In this document: positions 53,372-64,000 of the stretch, piece by piece
Layout: every line of letters starts with the position of its first letter
Position numbering within the stretch: the first letter of the stretch is position 1
Assembly: GCF_002894645.1 (NCBI RefSeq)
Contig: NZ_NCQY01000002.1
Location: forward strand, 88,901 to 152,900
Reading direction: 5' to 3'
Origin: Salinibacter altiplanensis
GTDB lineage: Bacteria; Bacteroidota; Rhodothermia; Rhodothermales; Salinibacteraceae
DNA: 64,000 bases
Notes under the pieces: generated by a model
What the model was told of the DNA's origin: nothing
What the model saw: the letters and a program-made list of their open reading frames with translations, nothing else
Databases searched by the model: none
Position numbers and translations under genes: made by a program

Positions 53372-54097
53372 CTATCGCCCGGACAAAAACCGTCCGACCC
53401 CCGGCAGCCGCCCGAGACCCAGGGAATCGTGCCGCACGATGTGCCAGGCCAGGTTCAGTCCACTGGAGACGCCGCGGAACGTCACCAGTTCGGCCACGAA
53501 TGCGACGAGTTTGTCAACGAGGGCCGTGGTGGCTGCCTGGGCCTCGGTTTCGTCGTGAATCCAGTGGCGGACGATGGCGAATGAGACTTCAGTCAGCACT
53601 TCGTGCACCGGCCAGAGTCCCGTGACGAGCTGGTTCGTTCCCGGCACGAGGTCATCCTCCGTCAAGAGGTCGCGGAGGGTGGCTCGCACCTCTGCCCGGA
53701 ACGACGATTGGGAGCGAATCCGGCCGTCAAAGGTGTCTTGGACGAAGGCACGCTGCTCCCCGAGCGCATCGAGCAGGATGTAGTAGAAGGACGCCAGCCG
53801 TTCTTCGAACGAAAAGTCCTCGTAGCCGGTCGTGGCGCTCGTCAGCATTCGGTACTGCTCCAGCGTGAGGGTGTAAAAGGCCGGGGGGAGTTCCTCGACC
53901 GCCTCGAAGTGGGCTTCGAAGAGGGGCTGTTCCACGCCGGCCTCGGCACACACCTCCGCAATGGTCGGCGAGGCGTCCGGCTTTCGCCGAAGCCGAAGGG
54001 CGGCTTCGACCAGCTGCTTTTTCTCAGCGAACGCGTCGGGGGTAGAAATCGGGCTGAGAGGCCTTGGGACAAAAAACGAGCGGTGTCTCCTACGCAC
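53372..54097 (-). CDS. TetR-like regulator upstream of the UbiB-type gene
   Basis: 241 residues. The N-terminal part resembles a TetR DNA-binding domain (KKQLVEAALRLRRKPDASPT, IAEVCAEAGVEQPLFEAHFE), though the second half of the HTH (QPLFEAHF) is less canonical than TLYNYF. The rest is helical (ASFYYILLDALGEQRAFVQD). It is on the same strand, upstream of the UbiB-like gene, which suggests a local two-gene unit. The exact start is uncertain; ATG 54097 is the only ATG before the domain. No operator was found in the short upstream spacer. Confidence 0.72.
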   Translation of the reverse strand: MRRRHRSFFVPRPLSPISTPDAFAEKKQLVEAALRLRRKPDASPTIAEVCAEAGVEQPLFEAHFEAVEELPPAFYTLTLEQYRMLTSATTGYEDFSFEERLASFYYILLDALGEQRAFVQDTFDGRIRSQSSFRAEVRATLRDLLTEDDLVPGTNQLVTGLWPVHEVLTEVSFAIVRHWIHDETEAQAATTALVDKLVAFVAELVTFRGVSSGLNLAWHIVRHDSLGLGRLPGVGRFLSGR

Positions 54098-54184
54098 ACC
54101 GCCGTGAGATTTTCCGTGGGCCGACGTGTTGGCCAGGCAATCCTCACTGGTGGGCGTCTGCTCTGGGAGGCACGCAGGTGTTTC

Positions 54185-55489
54185 TTACGCCCGGACGCCC
54201 TCCTCGGGCACCCCGGTGGCCGTCTCGGTCTCAGGGTGGTTGCTCCACTCGTACCAGCCGCCGTCGTAGACCGAAATGTTCGGCCACCCCATCAGGTACG
54301 CGTTCATGAACGCCTCGCTGCCCCGCCAGCCCGTGCCGCAGTAGAAGGCAATGTGCCGGTCCGGCGTGATCCCCATTTCGGCCCACTTCTCGGCGATTTC
54401 CGAAAACTCCCGCGTCGTATAATCGAAATTGCGGTAGTTCTCCATGTGGTAGGCGTCGCTTCCACAGTTGCCGAACACCGCCCCCGGAATGCGCCCGGTC
54501 TTGTCGATGTAGTGGTAGCCGCTCCGTTCGCCAATAAACTCCGCCCAGCTCCGCACGCTGACGAGGTCTCTGTCGTCGGCATCCAAGAACTCCCGGGCCC
54601 CGTCGAGGGTCAGCATGTACTCCGGGTGGGCCGGCACTTCCGCCCCAAAGTCCCCCACCGGCTCCGGCTCTGCGTCCGTGGTCGACACGTCGTACCCGGC
54701 GGACTCCCACGTGTTGATGCCGCCGTTGAGAATCCTGACGTCTTCGACGCCGGCGTAGAGCATCAGGGCCGCACACCGCATGGCCCCGAGGTGGCCTGCG
54801 CTCTGGGCGGGGTAGTCTTGGTCGTACGTCGGGTACGAGAAGCGCCCGTAGAGCACCACGGTGGTGTCGTGGCGAATGCCGTGGTCCTCGAGGGCGCGCT
54901 TCAGCTCCGCCGGTGGGCGCCGATTCCAGGTCTCGGGCGACTCCAGGGCATTTGTGTTGAGCGGGATGGCGCCGGGGATGTGGCCGTCCTCATAGTCCTG
55001 GCGGTACCCGAAGTGGGTGTGACACAGGACGTACTCGTCGCCGTTCATCTCAGGGGGCTCCGTGCCGGAAATGAGGCCCTGCACCCACTCCGGGTAAACG
55101 AGCTGCCGGTACCGCTGCATGCGCCGAAGAGGCCGATCTGGATCGGATGTCCACTCGTCCAGAAAGCCGCCGTAGACGCCGACGGCCTCAAAGCCGAGTC
55201 GCGAGAGCTTGTTCGCCATCTCCGCGGCGGCGTCTGCGGTGTAGCCGTATACCGTCACGGGCATGTCCCGCGACAGGCCCTTCTCGTCGAGCACCTCTAC
55301 CCAGTCCATGTACTGCGTCCACTGGAGCGGCAGGCTCTTGGCGCCCGGCACGTGTCCACTCCGGGACGCGTCTCGGAGCGGCCATCCATTGTACGCCGCG
55401 ATGGGGCGAACGTCCAGGATGGTGTGATCGGGGTCCTCGGCCTGCAGGGCGAAGGTGTCGGTGGAAACGGTGGAGATCGTTTCTTCCAT
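54185..55489 (-). CDS. Three-domain rhodanese-type sulfurtransferase
   Basis: 434 residues with three rhodanese modules. Domain 1 (about 1-140; ILDVRPIAAYNG, HVPGAKSLPL) has VYGYTADAAAEM where the active-site Cys should be. Domain 2 (about 145-290; DGHIPGAIPL) has VVLYGRFSY, again without Cys. Domain 3 (about 305-430; VSVRSWAEFIG, GRIPGAVFGN) has the intact loop YCGTGWRGSE. Two inactive modules probably stabilise or recognise partners. It resembles thiosulfate sulfurtransferases but is longer than the usual two domains (about 280). Start ATG 55489; the frame to 55645 is an extension. Confidence 0.88.
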   Translation of the reverse strand: MEETISTVSTDTFALQAEDPDHTILDVRPIAAYNGWPLRDASRSGHVPGAKSLPLQWTQYMDWVEVLDEKGLSRDMPVTVYGYTADAAAEMANKLSRLGFEAVGVYGGFLDEWTSDPDRPLRRMQRYRQLVYPEWVQGLISGTEPPEMNGDEYVLCHTHFGYRQDYEDGHIPGAIPLNTNALESPETWNRRPPAELKRALEDHGIRHDTTVVLYGRFSYPTYDQDYPAQSAGHLGAMRCAALMLYAGVEDVRILNGGINTWESAGYDVSTTDAEPEPVGDFGAEVPAHPEYMLTLDGAREFLDADDRDLVSVRSWAEFIGERSGYHYIDKTGRIPGAVFGNCGSDAYHMENYRNFDYTTREFSEIAEKWAEMGITPDRHIAFYCGTGWRGSEAFMNAYLMGWPNISVYDGGWYEWSNHPETETATGVPEEGVRA

Positions 55490-55904
55490 CAGTATGGAGA
55501 GCGAAGCGTGGGAACGGCGAATATTGCGTCCACGAACTTGAGGAAATCGACGACAAGACGCAACTTCCCAGAGCGATTCCTGACCGTCGGAAAGCGGAAA
55601 AACCCGCAACGACCTTTGGGGCGAAGGGGCGGCGCCGCTCCTCAAATGGAGATCTAGAACTCAGCTTCGGCGGCGCTTCAGTGGGGGGCGAGTCTGTTGC
55701 TCGTGGGATATTTCTGGCATCGTGTCCGTCCCAAATGGGCCCTCCGGCCTCATGGCTCAAGTAAGCGTGTGGTACGTACGAGCGGTCCTCTTGCACGTCG
55801 CCCTCGGGGCAACAGCGGGGGCGTGAAGGTTGGCGGCTTCAGGAGGGCCTGGGCTGGCGTTCCCCTTGCCGATCCGGCCGCTACACCTGGAGGTCATGCT
55901 CCTC

Positions 55905-56200
55905 GGGTGGCGTTTCTCATGACTATCGGTTCTGGGCGGCCTGGGGGCTGCTGAACACAGGCATCGCCCGGGCGGTGCTGGGGCACTGGCGCGCCGTTCA
56001 TCTTCCCGAGCCTCGGCCCCACGGCCTTCCTGCTCAGTGATCGAAGATCGGGCCATCCCCTCTCCGCCTGGACCGTCGTCGGGAGCCACACTTGGGGGAC
56101 AGGGACGGGACTGATAAGCCACCACCTGCTGGTCTCGGGGGGCACGTTGATGACCCTGCAGGAGAGCGGGTCCGGATTGGGGGCTCGTCCGGTGAGGCCT
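55905..56200 (+). pseudogene. Remnant of an HPP-family membrane protein
   Basis: From 55988 the plus strand reads GAPFIFPSLGPTAFLLSD, the signature of HPP-family (often CBS-linked) membrane proteins. GHPLSAWTVVGSHTWGTGTG and LISHHLLVSGGTLMTLQ follow in the same frame. The sequence just upstream (YRFWAAWGLLNTGIARAVLG, from about 55921) fits the preceding helix but in another frame; an extra G in the GGGG run near 55980 would explain it. Neither a start nor the C-terminal HAPACATT-type motif is seen, so this is a broken fragment. Confidence 0.5.
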
Positions 56201-56558
56201 CTTGCTCATCCGTATCGTCTACGATCCTCCATCTTTCGATGCCATGCGCTTGATTTTGAGCAGTGCTGCCCTCCCCGACGAGCCGCCGGGCACGGGACCT
56301 CATCGACGGGCGGTGCGACCGCGCGCCGCCCTTCCTCTTCGCTCTCCTTCAACGCTGCACTCGAAACCGGGAGGATTCGAACGGCGCCTCTGGAAGAGGC
56401 AAGAAGGACCGGATTGATCCTGCTTAAGGGGCCCCGGGTGTGCCCGCCTGAGGGGCGCTCCGCCGGTCCCCTAACGTCCACGGAATCTTCATTGCGGTAG
56501 AGCGGGAGACGGCCTTGCAAGTGTGACCCTAGATCGGTAAGGTAGAATTGCGGCATTG

Positions 56559-56577
56559 ATTTAGAACTGATCTAAAT
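56559..56577. promoter_or_regulatory. Candidate operator (ATTTAGA-N5-TCTAAAT)
   Basis: A perfect 7-bp inverted repeat, ATTTAGA (56559-56565) and TCTAAAT (56571-56577), lies in an AT-rich patch 99 bp upstream of the CxCC protein gene. It is reminiscent of Fur-superfamily boxes (Irr-type sites have TTTAGAA-N3-TTCTAAA), but the spacing differs and the regulator is unknown. Confidence 0.5.
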
Positions 56578-56675
56578 AAGGATAGAGCTTAAGTGGTGAC
56601 GCCGCCGTCCCTCGCCCAGGTTCCCACCGACACGACCGCTTATCTCTAGATACCTCCCCTACGCCCTCCACACTC

Positions 56676-57083
56676 ATGTCCCAAACCACGCACAACCTCC
56701 ATGGACCTGACCGCCTGTCCGAAACCCGCTACGGGTATGTTCTGCAATGTGAGTGTTGCGGGCGCATCCAGATCATCTTCCGCGAGCACACCCTGCTAAT
56801 GTATGAGGACGAACTGGAGGTGCTCGCTGACACAGTTAAACACGCTTTGAAGCAGGTGCGCAGCACTGAAAGTCAGGACCGTTGGACCCTTCAGGCCGAA
56901 ACTGACGCTGGCCCCGTCGCGATTACGCTGACTGAGCCGTCGCTCTGTGCCCTGAATACATTGCTCCAGGGCGCCTGGTCAATGTATGTGCTTCGGGAGC
57001 GGGTGGCTGCCCTGTCCTCAGAAGAAGATGGAAATCCCGAGGACGTGCTCCGGGACCATCTTCCCCGCCCCAGCTCGCGGTAA
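56676..57083 (+). CDS. Small CxCC-motif protein, uncharacterised (DUF6686-like)
   Basis: A 135-residue soluble protein starting MSQTTHNLHGPDRLSETRYG. A CECCGRIQIIF segment (residues about 25-35) offers three closely spaced cysteines, as in small metal-binding or redox proteins found in many Bacteroidota (DUF6686-like; assignment from memory of that pattern). The middle has LYEDEL-type helices and the end is acidic. There is no signal peptide or TM. It stands alone on the plus strand behind the palindromic site at 56559-56577. Function is unknown; metal-linked regulation is a testable idea. Confidence 0.68.
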   Translation: MSQTTHNLHGPDRLSETRYGYVLQCECCGRIQIIFREHTLLMYEDELEVLADTVKHALKQVRSTESQDRWTLQAETDAGPVAITLTEPSLCALNTLLQGAWSMYVLRERVAALSSEEDGNPEDVLRDHLPRPSSR

Positions 57084-57638
57084 ATTTGCGCGTCCAGGGG
57101 GCTTTTCGGGATACATGCAATTTGTGAACGTACGTCCACTGTCCAAAAAAGAGGGACCGAAATGAGAGGCGAAACCGACCTTTCAGGCTTCTGAGAGCGG
57201 CTTGCGCACTTGAGAAATGCGTGACGGAAACCCTCCTTCAGGACGACCTACCGATCCGTGAGAACGTACGCAAACGATTTTCTTCAGCCTGGTGGAGATC
57301 AGCCGAACCCGTCCGGCAAGATGCTGGGAATCCCAGATTCTGGAGATCCTAGATCGCCTGAGCCGTGCTCAGTCATGAGCACAACCGAACGTATTCACGG
57401 ATCGGCATGGCCGATTTGTGTCCCCTGCATTGACATTTTGCACGGACCCCGAAAGCACCTCAACTACGACACCATCTTGAGCCCAGACCAGAAGCGACAC
57501 ACCAGAAGCGACACAAGTGCTGGGAACTCGTGATGCTCTCGTGTAACGAGCCGATCCGCACGACAACTCCAGTGCCTCCGATATGACTTTAGTGAGCAGA
57601 CATCACCGAATCGCGTTTTCGAATCAATCTTCGACGCC
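57084..57638. other. Intergenic region with short repeats
   Basis: No gene was recognised. It contains a hairpin ATCGGC-ATG-GCCGAT (57401-57415) and a tandem duplication of the 14-mer ACCAGAAGCGACAC (57487-57500 and 57501-57514). The right part should hold the promoter of the MmgE/PrpD gene. Confidence 0.5.
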
Positions 57639-59009
57639 ATGCCCATCGTCCATGACCTCGCCAATTTCGTCGACACCGCCACGTACGACGACCTCTCCGA
57701 CGAGGCCAAGAAGCAACTGAAAGTGCGCGTCCTCGATTCCCTCGGGTGTGCCATCGGTGCCCTCGATGGCGGGCCGATCCGTGCGCTCCGCGAGCACCTC
57801 GCTGACTTTGGTGGGGCCGAGCACGCCACCCTCGTCGGTGGCGGGCGAACAGCGCCCGACCGCGCGGCCCTTTACAACAGCGCGCTCGTTCGCTACCTCG
57901 ACTACAACGATAGCTACCTTGCGGAGGGCGAGACGGGTCACCCCTCGGACAACCTCGGCTCGGTACTGGCCGCGACCGAGTACGCGGGCGGCTCCGGCGA
58001 AGACCTCCTCACGGCCCTCGCGGTCGCGTACCAGGTGCAGTGCCGCCTCAGTGACGAGGCGCCGGTGCGGGCCAAGGGCTTCGACCACACGGTGCAGGGG
58101 CAGTACGCCGCGGCGGCCGGGGCGGCGAAGGCCCTCGGCCTCGATCCCGAACAGATTGCCAATGCCATCGCCATTAGCGGCACCGCCCACAACGCCTTGC
58201 GCGTGACCCGGACCGGGGAGATTTCGAACTGGAAGGGATTGGCCTACCCGGAGACCGGGTTCACCGCCACCCACTCGGCCTTCCTCGCGATGCGCGGCAT
58301 TACCGGCCCGCCCGAGGTGTTCGAGGGCAACAAGGGCTTCAAGCACTCGATTGCGGGCGACTTCGCGCTCGACTGGAGCGAGGAGGATCTGGAGCGGGTC
58401 ACCGGCACGATCATCAAGAAGTACAACGCCGAGATCCACTCGCAGGCCACCCTGGAGGGGGCACTGGAGCTGAAGCGCACCCACGGCATCGACCCGTCGA
58501 CCATCGACGAGATTGAGGTCGATACCTTCGACGTGGCCTTCCACATCATCGGCGGGGGCGAGGAGGGAGACAAGACGATCGTCCGCCGCAAGGAGGAGGC
58601 CGACCACAGTCTGCACTACATGACGGCGGTGGCGCTTCTGGACGACCAGGTGCTGCCTGCCCAGTACGAACAGGACCGCATCGAGGCGGGCGACGTGCAG
58701 TCGCTTCTCCGGAAGGTGCATGTCACGGAGAATCCTCAGTACAGCGACCGCTTCCCCGATCACATGGTGTGCGACGTGCGCATCCATGCCGACGGGCAGG
58801 TCTACGAGATGCACAAAGAGGACTACGAAGGCTTCCACACGAAGCCGATGACGTGGGACACGGTGTCAGAGAAGTTTGCACGGCTGGCCGAGCCCTACAC
58901 CGATGCTGCGCTCCGACAAGACCTGATCGACGCTGTGCAGGAGCTGGAGACATTTCCCGCCGGCGACCTCTTCGATCTCCTGTCCCGCGTGCAAACGCCC
59001 GAAATGTAG
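57639..59009 (+). CDS. MmgE/PrpD family protein (2-methylcitrate dehydratase-like)
   Basis: A 456-residue protein. Family features: VRVLDSLGCAIGALDGGPIR near the N-terminus, LVRYLDYNDSYLAEGETGHP followed by SDNLGSVLAA, and the helical-domain segment AIAISGTAHNALRVTRTGEI with SNWKGLAYPE. The C-terminal alpha/beta domain contains SLHYMTAVALLDDQV. PrpD dehydrates 2-methylcitrate in propionate catabolism, but no prpB/prpC lies nearby, so another substrate (as in cis-aconitate decarboxylase-like or MmgE relatives) is possible. It is followed 72 bp later by a ComA-like gene on the same strand. Confidence 0.91.
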   Translation: MPIVHDLANFVDTATYDDLSDEAKKQLKVRVLDSLGCAIGALDGGPIRALREHLADFGGAEHATLVGGGRTAPDRAALYNSALVRYLDYNDSYLAEGETGHPSDNLGSVLAATEYAGGSGEDLLTALAVAYQVQCRLSDEAPVRAKGFDHTVQGQYAAAAGAAKALGLDPEQIANAIAISGTAHNALRVTRTGEISNWKGLAYPETGFTATHSAFLAMRGITGPPEVFEGNKGFKHSIAGDFALDWSEEDLERVTGTIIKKYNAEIHSQATLEGALELKRTHGIDPSTIDEIEVDTFDVAFHIIGGGEEGDKTIVRRKEEADHSLHYMTAVALLDDQVLPAQYEQDRIEAGDVQSLLRKVHVTENPQYSDRFPDHMVCDVRIHADGQVYEMHKEDYEGFHTKPMTWDTVSEKFARLAEPYTDAALRQDLIDAVQELETFPAGDLFDLLSRVQTPEM

Positions 59010-59033
59010 CGAAGACCTCTCATCCTCACGCAA

Positions 59034-59054
59034 AGACGCGGCGCCGCCGCGTCT
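59034..59054. other. Perfect intercistronic hairpin between PrpD-like and ComA-like genes
   Basis: AGACGCGGC (59034-59042) and GCCGCGTCT (59046-59054) form an exact 9-bp stem with a 3-nt GCC loop, 27 nt before the next start codon. No T-run follows, so it is more likely an mRNA processing or stability element than a terminator. Confidence 0.55.
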
Positions 59055-59081
59055 CAATGCTCACAACCAAGCAACCGTACC

Positions 59082-59927
59082 ATGAGTGACCAAACGACCG
59101 GCGATCCCCGACGTGCTTTTCAATTTCTCGACCTCAACGACCGCGGCGAGAAGCCCCGCGACGTGGGCATTACCGAGATCCGCGGCCCCTACTACAGCCC
59201 AATGGGCCCCAACTACTTGGACGATGTCCTTTCTACAATGGGGCACTATGTCGACAGCCTCAAGTTTGCGGGCGGCTCCTTCAGCCTGATGCCGGAGGCG
59301 GAGGTGCAGGCTCTGCTCGACAAGGCCCACGACCACGACGTACTGGTCTCCACGGGCGGCTTCATGGAGTACGTGCTCACGCAGGGAGACGATGCGGTGC
59401 ACCAGTACATCGACGAATGTGCCCGCCTCGGCTTTGACATCATCGAGATCTCTGCGGGCTTCATCACGCTCCCCACGGACGACTGGGTGCGCCTGATCGA
59501 GCTCGTGCAGGAGGCCGGCCTGAAGGCCAAGCCGGAGGTGGGCGTGCAGCACGGTGCCGGCGGCGGGGCCACCACGACTGAGGAGCTGGAGCAAATTGGC
59601 CAGCAGGACCCGTCGCAGGCCATCACCCGGGCCAAGCGCTTTCTGGAGGCGGGCGCCTACCAGATCATGATGGAGAGCGAGGGCATCACCGAAAACGTGC
59701 CGGAGATGCGGACCGAAATCCCGGCGCAGTTTATCGACGAGCTTGGCCTGGAGAACCTGATGTTCGAGGCGGCCGACCCGCATGTCTTTCCGTGGTACAC
59801 CCAGAACTACGGCCCGGAGGTGAACCTCTTCGTGGACCACAGCCAGATTGTGCAGCTCGAATGCCTGCGCAGCGGCATCTGGGGCCCGCACGACCTCTTT
59901 GGCCGCGTTCAGACGTTCAAAGGCTAG
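59082..59927 (+). CDS. Phosphosulfolactate synthase-like (ComA family) protein
   Basis: A 281-residue TIM-barrel protein. Family features: KPRDVGITEIRGPYYSPMG at the N-terminus, VDSLKFAGGSFSLMP, VLVSTGGFMEYVLTQG, FDIIEISAGFITLP, and EAGAYQIMMESEGITEN. ComA joins sulfite to phosphoenolpyruvate to give phosphosulfolactate, the first step of coenzyme M synthesis in methanogens. The family also includes plant HSA32-type proteins of other function. In a sulfonolipid-containing lineage the reaction could supply sulfolactate or sulfopyruvate, but neighbouring comB/comC were not found. It is encoded after a PrpD-like gene and ended by a strong terminator. Confidence 0.88.
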   Translation: MSDQTTGDPRRAFQFLDLNDRGEKPRDVGITEIRGPYYSPMGPNYLDDVLSTMGHYVDSLKFAGGSFSLMPEAEVQALLDKAHDHDVLVSTGGFMEYVLTQGDDAVHQYIDECARLGFDIIEISAGFITLPTDDWVRLIELVQEAGLKAKPEVGVQHGAGGGATTTEELEQIGQQDPSQAITRAKRFLEAGAYQIMMESEGITENVPEMRTEIPAQFIDELGLENLMFEAADPHVFPWYTQNYGPEVNLFVDHSQIVQLECLRSGIWGPHDLFGRVQTFKG

Positions 59928-59992
59928 GGCTTTCACCCACATCGGCGATGGCGGGTTGATGTCCGCCGTTGAAAGACGTGAGCAGGAAATGA

Positions 59993-60028
59993 GGGCGGGA
60001 GGAATGTTCTATCCTCCCGCCCTTTCTG
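59993..60028 (+). terminator. Intrinsic terminator after the ComA-like gene
   Basis: GGGCGGGAGGA (59993-60003) and TCCTCCCGCCC (60012-60022) form a perfect 11-bp stem with an 8-nt loop. TTTCTGTG follows on the plus strand. The position, 65 bp after the stop codon, fits a rho-independent terminator of the PrpD/ComA-like unit. Confidence 0.88.
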
Positions 60029-60624
60029 TGTCTTCTCCGGCCTGGATGCGACGCCCCGGGTGCAGTGGACAAAGATGGGATTCAGCGTCGCACGGGGCTG
60101 CACCGGCAACTCTCGCCGAAGCTGCTCACGCTGTGCACCGCAGAGCCCCTCCTTGAATCTTGGGGCAGGAAGAGGCCTCACTCGGAAGTGACTGACGAAG
60201 GAAAAGGGGCCCGTTGACGCCGCCCATCTCTCTCCTCGGTCGTTACGACCACGACCAGAAAGAGAGAGGCAACGACGGGGAGGGCTTCTCACACTTTCGC
60301 TGTGCCGCGGGCCACCAGGCGTGGAGCACGAAGGTTCACTAGAGTTTGAGTGTGGGAAGGAGGCCAGTCCATGTGCGCTCCGCAACCGACCGAACGAAGG
60401 CCTCAGCGTGACAGACGCCGGGCTGGGTAGGGCAGACGTTCGGTGTACTCGTCCCGGCACCAGGAGCGAGCCCGATGTTGCTCGCGAGTGTGTGGCAGGG
60501 CCACGGCCGTTCCTCCGTCCCTACACCGCTCTTTCGCACGCAGTGGTCGATCAGCTCGGCGGGACAGTGGCCCAGGAGGCGGCTCGTGTCCTCCTAAAGG
60601 ATAAGAGAGAACAGCCAGAAGCGG
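60029..60624. other. Gene-free region before the decayed thiO/RIC segment
   Basis: About 600 bp with no recognisable gene, domain or RNA. Short open frames on both strands translate to low-complexity Arg/Ser/Pro sequence unlike the acidic proteins of this genome. Confidence 0.5.
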
Positions 60625-60885
60625 CTACGAGGCGACCGGAGACGTCTTGGCGAAGCGGGACGGCAGGAAGGGCGTGAGCCGGTCGGAGCTGTCCCCGGTC
60701 GGGATCTGCTCCGCAATTTCCTGGGCCGTTACCGGCGTCAACAAGATCCCGTGGCGGTAATGGCCCGTGGCGAAGAGCACGCCGGGGGCGCCACTGGGAC
60801 CCAGCAACGGAGCATAGTCGCGGGTGTCGGGCCGCAGGCCCAGGTCGCTGGTGTGGACGGCAAGCTCGCGGAGGCCCGCCGCAGA
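60625..60885 (-). pseudogene. 3' fragment of a glycine oxidase ThiO-like gene
   Basis: The minus-strand frame ending at 60625 translates to LAVHTSDLGLRPDTRDYAPL, LGPSGAPGVLFATGHYRHGI and LLTPVTAQEIAEQI. This is the C-terminal FAD/substrate region of ThiO (typical GLRPxTxDxxPxxGP and ATGHxRxGILLxP). Nothing of the N-terminal FAD-binding part (GxGxxG) is found upstream. Sequence similarity begins around 60885, directly beside the end of the RIC remnant, so the 5' two-thirds of the gene are missing. ThiO oxidises glycine for thiazole synthesis in thiamine production. Confidence 0.75.
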
Positions 60886-60895
60886 CCCCGGGCCC

Positions 60896-61586
60896 TCAGG
60901 CCCTCGTGCGGGCGTGAGGAAAAAGAATGTTGTTTTCCTTGTGCACGTGCTGGTGCATGTCGGCCTCCAGTTCGTGGAGGCCTTTCAGGGCCGAACGAAG
61001 TTTGGGGCATGCGCTCTCTGGGAGGGGACATAGTCGTTCGTCGGCTCTCGAAGACGGTCCAGGGCGACTCGGGAGTCGTCGTGCTCGCGGATCATTTTGT
61101 CGACGCCGTTCTCGTCTAGGAAAGCGCCCGAGGCTTCTTCTTTGAGGGCCCGAATTGAGGGAAAAATGCGCTCCTCCTCGCTCACCATGTGCGTGCTGAG
61201 GTCCAGCTTAAGGGTTTGGAAGACCTCCAGTGTGGGGGCGAGCCAGGAGTGCCCGTCGCCGTGTGCCTCCACTACCTGGATCAACAGGTCCTCGAGCCGA
61301 GGGAGCTCACGGCACAGGCAGGAGGGATGGGGGGAAACGATGTGGTCGATCAAGGCGGCGAGAGACTTCTCCGTTCAATCGACGGCTCGGCAGGAAGGAG
61401 AGGCCCTGACGGTCACGTCCAACATCTCGGTGACGGTGGCCGGGTCGAGGTTCTTCTCGCGGCACGCAGTGGCCAGGGAGTGATCGCCTCCACAGCAGTA
61501 ATCGAGGCCGAGGTGTTCGAAAATGTGGGCCCGGCCGGGCCGGTCGATCACGAGTTGGGCGACGGGGGAGTGGGGGAGATGCTCAT
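60896..61586 (-). pseudogene. Broken RIC/ScdA (YtfE-like) di-iron repair protein gene
   Basis: The minus strand encodes AQLVIDRPGRAHIFEHLGLD followed by YCCGGDHSLATACREKNLDP, the ScdA N-terminal (DUF542) domain. An in-frame TGA follows at 61377-61375, where a Trp codon is likely. The same frame then continues with the hemerythrin-like domain (LIDHIVSPHPSCL, HGDGHSW, HMVSEEERIFPSI, REHDDSRVALDRL). Near 61014-61020 an AG dinucleotide repeat shifts the frame; after a 2-base correction the sequence goes on to LHELEADMHQHVHKENNILF and stops at 60896. The only ATG (61586) is also out of frame with the DUF542 part. RIC proteins repair Fe-S clusters after nitrosative stress; this copy appears recently inactivated. 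Confidence 0.82.
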
Positions 61587-62213
61587 GGGACGTCGGGACT
61601 GGTGAGGAAACGTTCCGAAAGTGGAGCGAAAGGGAGGAAGCGATTCAGAAGCTGTTGGGCGGACGTTCTGTGGCCCCCCGATGAGTACTTGGTCGTTTTG
61701 CCCCCAGCGCTGTGCCTTCGCGGGCCCTGTCTGAAAAAGCCCCCCAGCAGCGTCTCAGTGTTCAATTTTCAGAACCCCTTGTCCGAAGTACGGTGAGGAA
61801 ATCGTGTCCAGTCGGGCACGGCAGAGCGGCCGCTTGGGCGACGGGCGTTGTGGACCGTTGCGTCTGCCTGCGTGCGCCCTCCGGACCGCCACTTGCGGCT
61901 AAAGCATTGAGGGACATGGTGGAGTATAAAACTATTTCAGATGCTTTTGTATTAACTACTCAGCGGGTATGGGTTTTGGCCGGCTCCTGGGCCGTCGGGC
62001 ACCCCGCCGGGACCGACTCCGAGGGGGAGCACCGAGGGATGAGTCGCGCGCCCCCACGGTGGTTTGACGGCGCGGACGACGGGGACTGTGAGGTCGGGCG
62101 TGCAACGCCGTGGCGTTCACGGGGCGATGTTTACGGCACCTTTTCTCACGGGCGCTCTCTTGGTTGGAGCGCTGGGAAGGAGGCTATGTGTTGCTTCTTC
62201 TGACGCACCGCCG
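61587..62213. other. Gene-free region between the RIC remnant and the CoA-binding gene
   Basis: No gene was recognised. A 10-bp direct repeat GGTGAGGAAA occurs at 61601-61610 and 61792-61801. Between 61920 and 61963 there is an AT-rich patch (AGTATAAAACTATTTCAG and onward) unlike the surrounding GC-rich DNA. Confidence 0.5.
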
Positions 62214-62648
62214 CTATGCAAACAGCCGGTCGTACTCAATCTTGATGCATCGGTTGCGTACGTAGGGCAGCTCCGCCTCCTCGGCCAGTGTGTTCGCCTC
62301 CGAGCTCGACACCCCGAGCTGAGTCCAAATCACCGGCTGCTCGTCCGTTTGTTGGACGCGTGCAATTGCCGAGCGGACCATGTCGGCCGTGTGGGCGGGG
62401 GCCCGGAAGATGTCAACGATGTCGAGCTCTACGTCCGTTGGGATGCTCGGAAGATCCGGATAGCATGATTCGCCAAGCACCCGGTCGTGGTTTGGGTTCA
62501 CCGGCACGATGCGGTAGCCGCGTGCCTGCAAGTACCGGCCAATCTTGTGGCTCGTGCGTGTCGGTGTGGCTGAGCAGCCGACCACCGCGATCGTGTCGGC
62601 GGTTTCGAGTACACTGTGAAGGTCGGGGGAGAGACCGTCGTCGGGCAT
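62214..62648 (-). CDS. CoA-binding domain protein (YccU-like)
   Basis: A 144-residue protein of the CoA_binding_2 family. It has the Rossmann start TIAVVGCSATPTRTSHKIGR, followed by YLQARGYRIVPVNPN, DIVDIFRAP and WTQLGVSSSEAN, and ends NRCIKIEYDRLFA (the usual 'xxRCxxxEhxRL' ending). Small cytoplasmic members bind CoA or acyl-CoA; their physiological role is unclear. ATG 62648 gives the standard length; the frame to 62831 is an extension. It is divergent from leuS, with a 189-bp spacer. Confidence 0.9.
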   Translation of the reverse strand: MPDDGLSPDLHSVLETADTIAVVGCSATPTRTSHKIGRYLQARGYRIVPVNPNHDRVLGESCYPDLPSIPTDVELDIVDIFRAPAHTADMVRSAIARVQQTDEQPVIWTQLGVSSSEANTLAEEAELPYVRNRCIKIEYDRLFA

Positions 62649-62837
62649 AGAACGATTGAATTCGTGTGCAGGCAGTGGAGAGGTGGCGAGTCGGTACTTA
62701 CCCTGTGTCGGCACGCAAAGTCTTCTCCTTTGTTGGTCTCGTACCCCGCAAGGGTCGTTACGACCCGTAGCGAGAGCGAGACGCAGCGGGCGCCCTCCCC
62801 ACCACAACCCACTAGATTGTTCAATCGCCATCCGCCA

Positions 62838-64000
62838 TGGCCTATCCGTTCCACGACATTGAGACGAAGTGGCAAAAGCACTGGGAGGAGCACCAGACCT
62901 TCCGCACCCCCGATGAGGTGCCGGACGACACGGACGAGTTCTACGTGCTCGACATGTTTCCGTACCCCAGCGGCGCGGGCCTCCACGTGGGCCACCCGGA
63001 GGGATACACGGCCACCGACATCGTGGCCCGCTACAAGCGCAAGCAGGGATTCAACGTGCTGCACCCGATGGGATGGGACGCGTTCGGCCTGCCCGCCGAG
63101 CAGTACGCGCTGAAGACAAACACCCATCCGCGGGAGACCACAGAGGAAAACATTGCGCAGTTCAAACGTCAGCTCAAGCGCCTCGGCTTCTCGTACGACT
63201 GGCAGCGGGAGATCAACACCACCGACCCAGACTACTACAAGTGGACGCAGTGGATCTTCCTGCAGCTCTACGAAAAAGGGCTCGCCTACCAGTCCGAAGA
63301 GCCGGTGTGGTGGTGTGACGAGCTGGGCACCGTCCTGGCCAATGAGGAGGTGATCGACGGCAAGAGCGAGCGGGGCGGGCATCCCTGCGAGCGGGTGCCG
63401 ATGCGGCAGTGGGTGCTCAAGATCACCGAGTACGCCGATCGGCTGCTGGAGGGGCTGGAAGACCTCGACTGGCCGGAGAGCACGAAGGAGATGCAGCGCA
63501 ACTGGATCGGCCGCTCGGAGGGCGCGAACGTCTACTTCGACCTTGCGGGCGTGGACGATTCGTTGGAGGTCTACACCACGCGGCCTGATACCCTCTTCGG
63601 GGCCACCTACATGGTGTTGGCGCCCGAGCACGAGCTGCTCGACGAGGTCACGACCGAGCCGCACCGCGAGAAGGTGGAGGAATACTGCACGCAGGCCCTC
63701 CGCAAAAGCGAGCGCGAGCGCCAGCAGCAGGGGGACAAAACCGGCGTCTTTACCGGGGGATACGCGGTGAACCCGGTCACCGGCGAGGACATCCCGATTT
63801 GGGTGGCCGACTACGTGCTTGTCTCCTACGGCACCGGTGCCATCATGGCCGTCCCGGCCCACGACGAGCGCGACCATGCCTTCGCTGAGAGGTACGACCT
63901 GCCGATCCGGACGGTCGTGGAGGGCGGCGACGTGGACCAGGAGGCCTACGTCGGCGACGGGCCGCACGTGAACTCCGCCAACGAGAACGTGAGCCTCAAC
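62838..64000 (+). CDS. leuS: Leucyl-tRNA synthetase, 5' part (runs off the window)
   Basis: The frame is open from ATG 62838 to the window end (about 387 residues). The N-terminus has [15 protein letters not shown], then the class I signature in [20 protein letters not shown] (HxGH as HVGH), [20 protein letters not shown], and the zinc-region/editing-domain elements [32 protein letters not shown] and [18 protein letters not shown]. All are typical of bacterial LeuRS, which charges and proofreads tRNA-Leu. The KMSKS loop lies beyond the edge. Confidence 0.97.

Follow-up and report, generated by a model that had tools for sequence, protein, structure and literature searches.

RIC proteins normally help bacteria to repair iron-sulfur proteins that have been damaged by nitric oxide. 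In the described di-iron repair proteins of this family, RIC, YtfE and ScdA (TIGR03652; PDB 5fnn and 7bha; Staphylococcus aureus ScdA, 9r7j), a DUF542 domain is followed by a hemerythrin-like domain. Escherichia coli YtfE binds Fe1 through His84 and His204 and Fe2 through His129 and His160; without His129 its restoration of aconitase is abolished, and its E159L variant gave a crystal structure with one iron (PMC9268430). The iron site can also receive electrons from the Cys30/31 pair, depending on the conditions (PMC9052748). Closer to the DNA considered here, three Salinibacter/Salinivenus genomes (G009, G007 and G001) carry an intact Rrf2-RIC-HemN-ThiO-NPD cluster, which in G009 continues past the NPD-like gene with a rhodanese gene.

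The window, a stretch of 64,000 nucleotides from Salinibacter altiplanensis, contains a damaged RIC gene. A literature search on Salinibacter with pseudogenes or nitric oxide turned up nothing about it. We consider it very likely that the locus is a non-functional remnant of an ancestral Rrf2-RIC-HemN-ThiO-NPD-rhodanese cluster in the Salinibacter-like group. The parts of the broken gene are as follows.

60896..61586, minus strand: RIC pseudogene (YtfE/ScdA-like, type A), DUF542 part and then hemerythrin-like part (TIGR03652, Pfam, codon alignment)
61570..61586, minus strand: former start; owing to one missing base, its ATG is in a different frame from the body (codon alignment)
61375..61377, minus strand: nonsense TGA replacing a conserved Trp codon (codon alignment)
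61324..61326, minus strand: proline codon CCC where E. coli YtfE has the iron ligand His84 (mapping onto YtfE)
61010..61032, minus strand: region with a 2-base frameshift, exact spot ambiguous (alignment; tblastn pieces of two frames meet here)

Similarity to RIC extends across both domains, in the expected order: PF04405 matches the DUF542 part (61590-61375, E=8e-20) and PF01814 the hemerythrin part (61353-60985, E=8e-7), as the first-pass annotation had proposed from the letters. In a genome-wide search, TIGR03652 found the locus as a piece at 8e-41 with one internal TGA and a further piece in a different frame at 3e-10, so that the resemblance is well above chance, each piece scoring below the curated cut-off of 204.7 bits. 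Pieces in two frames are 61-76% identical to the intact G009 RIC by tblastn, and a protein tree places the pseudogene together with the RICs from the clusters of G009, G007, G001 and G012 (support 97/98). The codons for the DYCCGG motif and for His105, His129, Glu133, His160, His204 and Glu208 can still be read, as in RIC, YtfE and ScdA; unlike in those proteins, a nonsense codon and two frameshifts break what would be a single frame of about 220-235 codons, proline stands in for the His84 ligand, and the promoter-proximal regulator gene is gone.

All three lesions were recovered in a MAFFT codon alignment of the pseudogene and six intact copies from the genus. The TGA falls where 19 of the 20 intact RICs compared have Trp. 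Loss of one base within the first few codons has put the ATG at 61586 out of frame; a GTG at 61551 is in frame, although starting there would remove the first dozen residues. The 2-base frameshift, which takes away the helix bearing His204 and Glu208, is real, and its proposed site in an AG repeat (61014-61020) is not the one favoured by the alignment: MAFFT prefers two extra bases a few bases upstream, beside a TAT codon at about 61032-61030, with placement ambiguous within about 61010-61032.

The surroundings of the pseudogene are those of a cluster in pieces.

60631..60876, minus strand: remnant of the 3' end of thiO (glycine oxidase ThiO), 82 codons (similarity to G009 ThiO)
60468..60593, minus strand: remnant of the NPD-like flavin oxidoreductase gene, in relatives the next gene after thiO (protein and DNA similarity)
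57639..59927, plus strand: PrpD-like and ComA-like genes, between the relic and the rhodanese gene (Pfam)
54206..55495, minus strand: rhodanese-type sulfurtransferase gene (72% over 430 aa)
61641..61723, minus strand: non-coding dispersed repeat, some 55 bases before the former RIC start (copies across the genome)
62214..62831, minus strand: gene for a CoA-binding domain protein, an intact flank marking the site (PF13380, 1.6e-34)
62837..64000, plus strand: gene that we take to be leuS (leucyl-tRNA synthetase), an intact flank that runs past the window end (open frame of 388 aa)

The thiO relic begins 19 bases past the RIC stop; it shares 69.5% identity with the C-terminal 82 residues of G009 ThiO (E=4e-30), a gene assigned to ThiO by TIGR02352 in the relative, and 76% identical to the G001 protein. 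The NPD relic is short, with 50% identity over 44 aa (E=5e-7), and its DNA is 86.8% identical to that of G001 over 53 nt. The rhodanese gene matches the intact G009 cluster in order and strand. The window thus has RIC, ThiO, NPD and rhodanese in the order and strand of the Salinibacter/Salinivenus clusters; it differs from them in that Rrf2 and HemN are missing, with no scrap of either detected anywhere in the window, that ThiO and NPD are reduced to scraps, and that the PrpD-ComA pair lies between the NPD scrap and rhodanese. On the other side, 12 of the 13 genomes of the genus have the CoA-binding gene (E<=8e-66), and the leuS homologue in L094 is 863 aa long and falls in the same cluster in relatives.

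The PrpD-like/ComA-like pair occupies other sites in six relatives, and thus appears to have moved as one unit. The 3' end of the ComA-like gene (window 59773-59920) is duplicated on contig C29 of the same genome, G000 (L114:7829-7976), over 148 bases at 99.3% identity, and a short ComA 3' fragment is carried by G005 as well. The dispersed repeat upstream of the RIC gene has about a dozen copies in the genome, 77-94% identical (L153-L166), with a conserved end, GGCCACAGAACGTCCGCCAAACAGCTTCT, and other internal modules that vary; shorter matches occur in four other genomes of the genus. It could have separated the RIC gene from its promoter. No insertion-sequence ends were found around the relic among the inverted and direct repeats in 59930-62215.

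The equivalent site in relatives places this damage in a wider setting. In G003, G010, G004, G005 and G006, the gap between rhodanese and the CoA-binding/leuS genes measures 307-899 bases. No recognisable piece of the RIC cluster is present in that gap in G003, G010, G005 or G006; the gap of G004 (L097, 5554-5996) holds an Rrf2 relic on the expected strand, with 55% identity over 49 aa (E=4e-13). The window and G004 therefore hold different relics at one site, which argues for an ancestral cluster there that was lost stepwise; that the cluster was ancestral rather than inserted is based on gene order and on this one further relic. Taken with the intact clusters and the empty sites, the relics make the locus look like a late stage of a clade-level cluster loss, not a strain-specific accident. 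The loss was first read as limited to one strain, a view that does not survive five related genomes also lacking the cluster at the site, one of them with the Rrf2 relic. Among the named genomes that were scanned, none was a second strain of the species.

Two observations concern the cluster where it persists. In G012 (L082, C85) a RIC-HemN-NPD cluster is otherwise intact and thiO is nearly lost (56 residues, 46%), a remnant that is a further erosion step. G009 and G007, and only these, have genes for a CuA subunit II and a heme-copper subunit I (L083:4514-6780 and L092:1896-4179), near a canonical RIC gene in both; in subunit I, GHGTQQ or GHGSQQ replaces the GHAVVY of oxidases, which removes the active-site Tyr and suggests a putative NO-reductase-like protein.

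Alternatively, the window copy might stem from a type-A cluster that reached this genome later by horizontal transfer and was never functional in it. Such an origin would suit the location of the nearest intact copies in congeneric species and the fact that the closest ruber-like relatives retain no type-A RIC; it is harder to square with rhodanese, the next gene of the G009 cluster, which all six genomes of the group have at the site, or with the G004 Rrf2 relic in the same gap. Because an old resident cluster fits these two facts better, we regard import as unlikely. Under stepwise loss, the cluster would have sat in the ancestor between the leuS/CoA-binding pair and the genes beyond rhodanese, would have turned redundant or useless, and would have decayed by point mutation and deletion, with any remaining RIC-like role perhaps carried by a paralogue elsewhere in the genome.

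Changes within the pseudogene also bear on its state. Mapped onto E. coli YtfE, with ligands assigned as in PMC9268430, the set of His84, His129, Glu133, His160, His204 and Glu208 is incomplete: the His84 position reads CCC (61326-61324), and the other ligands are still readable, though spread over two frames. Changes unique to the pseudogene fall on codon positions 1, 2 and 3 in the numbers 23/23/21, against 7/4/22, 7/6/10 and 14/13/27 for lineage-unique changes in three intact copies (Fisher p=0.005 for the pseudogene versus the intact copies). The pseudogene counts are compatible with a neutral 2:1 expectation (p=0.80) and incompatible with the pooled intact pattern (p=0.0003). By these lineage-unique counts, coding constraint has been lost; the full likelihood test is weaker, giving a tree likelihood-ratio statistic for the codon-position pattern of about 17.4 (10 d.f., p about 0.07), with third positions close to saturation. 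The tree ratio of positions 1+2 to position 3 is 0.23 on the window branch and 0.12-0.14 on the two nearest sister branches. Together, the counts, branch ratios and likelihood test suggest that the branch was probably only partly spent under selection and partly without it. The first-pass annotation had judged the metal ligands intact and the decay recent; neither judgement can be kept, given the lost iron ligand, the unique changes without codon-position bias, and the deletion or truncation of neighbouring cluster genes.

The same features bear on whether the pieces are still used, either as separately made short DUF542 and hemerythrin proteins or through recoding that bypasses the TGA and frameshift. 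DUF542-only proteins exist, as do hemerythrin-only RICs, and the Neisseria gonorrhoeae RIC has no N-terminal domain (PMC9268430); the window offers the in-frame GTG at 61551 and a TTG at 61353 as possible starts. However, the helix that carries His204 and Glu208 is lost through the frameshift, His84 has become Pro, and the locus evolves without codon-position bias, which led us to reject TGA recoding as the main explanation; a recoding element was not found by Rfam, which gave zero matches at gathering thresholds over 54000-64000. Continued use of the pieces is accordingly very improbable. Assembly error was likewise rejected as the main explanation, and an intact RIC gene broken merely by sequencing or assembly errors is scarcely credible: C-rich or short-repeat DNA, which is most prone to errors, does contain two of the three lesions, both of them indels, and a single assembly of the species is at hand, but a few miscalled bases cannot yield the TGA substitution, the change of His84 to Pro and the absent codon-position bias, the colinear loss of hemN and of most of thiO and NPD is not attributable to base-calling, and the flanking genes are open.

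If the cluster was lost in this way, attention turns to what else the genome encodes. Searches with three models, in a genome that is 99.75% complete, found exactly one other RIC homologue.

G000 contig C21, L088:8289-8990, minus strand: C21 RIC paralogue, open frame of 234 codons

Its neighbours are hemN, NPD and Rrf2 genes, and it has orthologues in G003, G010 and G004 (loci L016, L017 and L018). Values of dN/dS of about 0.21-0.27 for the paralogue and its orthologues indicate that it is maintained by purifying selection. TIGR03652 scores it at 136.4 bits (E=1e-39), under the curated cut-off of 204.7 bits. An AlphaFold2 model (mean pLDDT 83.4) has the YtfE fold; its best PDB matches are all YtfE and ScdA, with TM 0.73-0.82 to YtfE.

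The full di-iron ligand set and the DfCCgG motif are, however, not present. In the C21 protein the Cys30/31 pair is RR, His129 is Gly, His105 is Ser and Glu159 is Gln, while His84, Glu133, His160, His204 and Glu208 are retained. Its three orthologues also lack equivalents of Cys30/31, His105, His129 and Glu159, and the Cys pair, His105 and His129 are kept in the RICs of 12 other relatives' genomes. The C21 protein resembles the one-iron E159L variant of E. coli YtfE (PDB 7bhb) in that the Fe2 ligand His129 is out of play and the Fe1 ligands are retained; unlike E159L, it is a natural variant known from sequence, without the His129 side chain and the Cys30/31 pair. With these residues lost and the Fe1 ligands kept, the protein probably has at most a one-iron (Fe1) site and may have taken a role other than standard di-iron repair, a weaker suggestion than those made for the pseudogene. 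The proposal that repair had moved to another copy is thus half borne out: another RIC gene exists, and takeover is uncertain because the paralogue lacks equivalents of the Cys pair, His129, His105 and Glu159. Judged by their residues, both RICs in the genome are non-canonical. It is possible, if somewhat doubtful, that the clade has lost its ordinary di-iron RIC and that the sole RIC left to it would be a naturally occurring one-iron form, devoid of the Cys pair and altered in function, which purifying selection maintains next to hemN, NPD-like and Rrf2 genes.

The pseudogene itself is ordinary gene decay. It belongs to a clade-level loss of a nitrosative-stress cluster, and adds a further case of stepwise loss of a stress-response cluster with intermediates visible across relatives. 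The lead of greater interest is the divergent C21 paralogue. This genome and three relatives have no standard RIC, only a conserved variant that, as read from its sequence, lacks the residues thought to govern iron donation (His129) and electron supply (Cys30/31). Genomes with only this variant may thus provide a natural test of which RIC activities require those residues.
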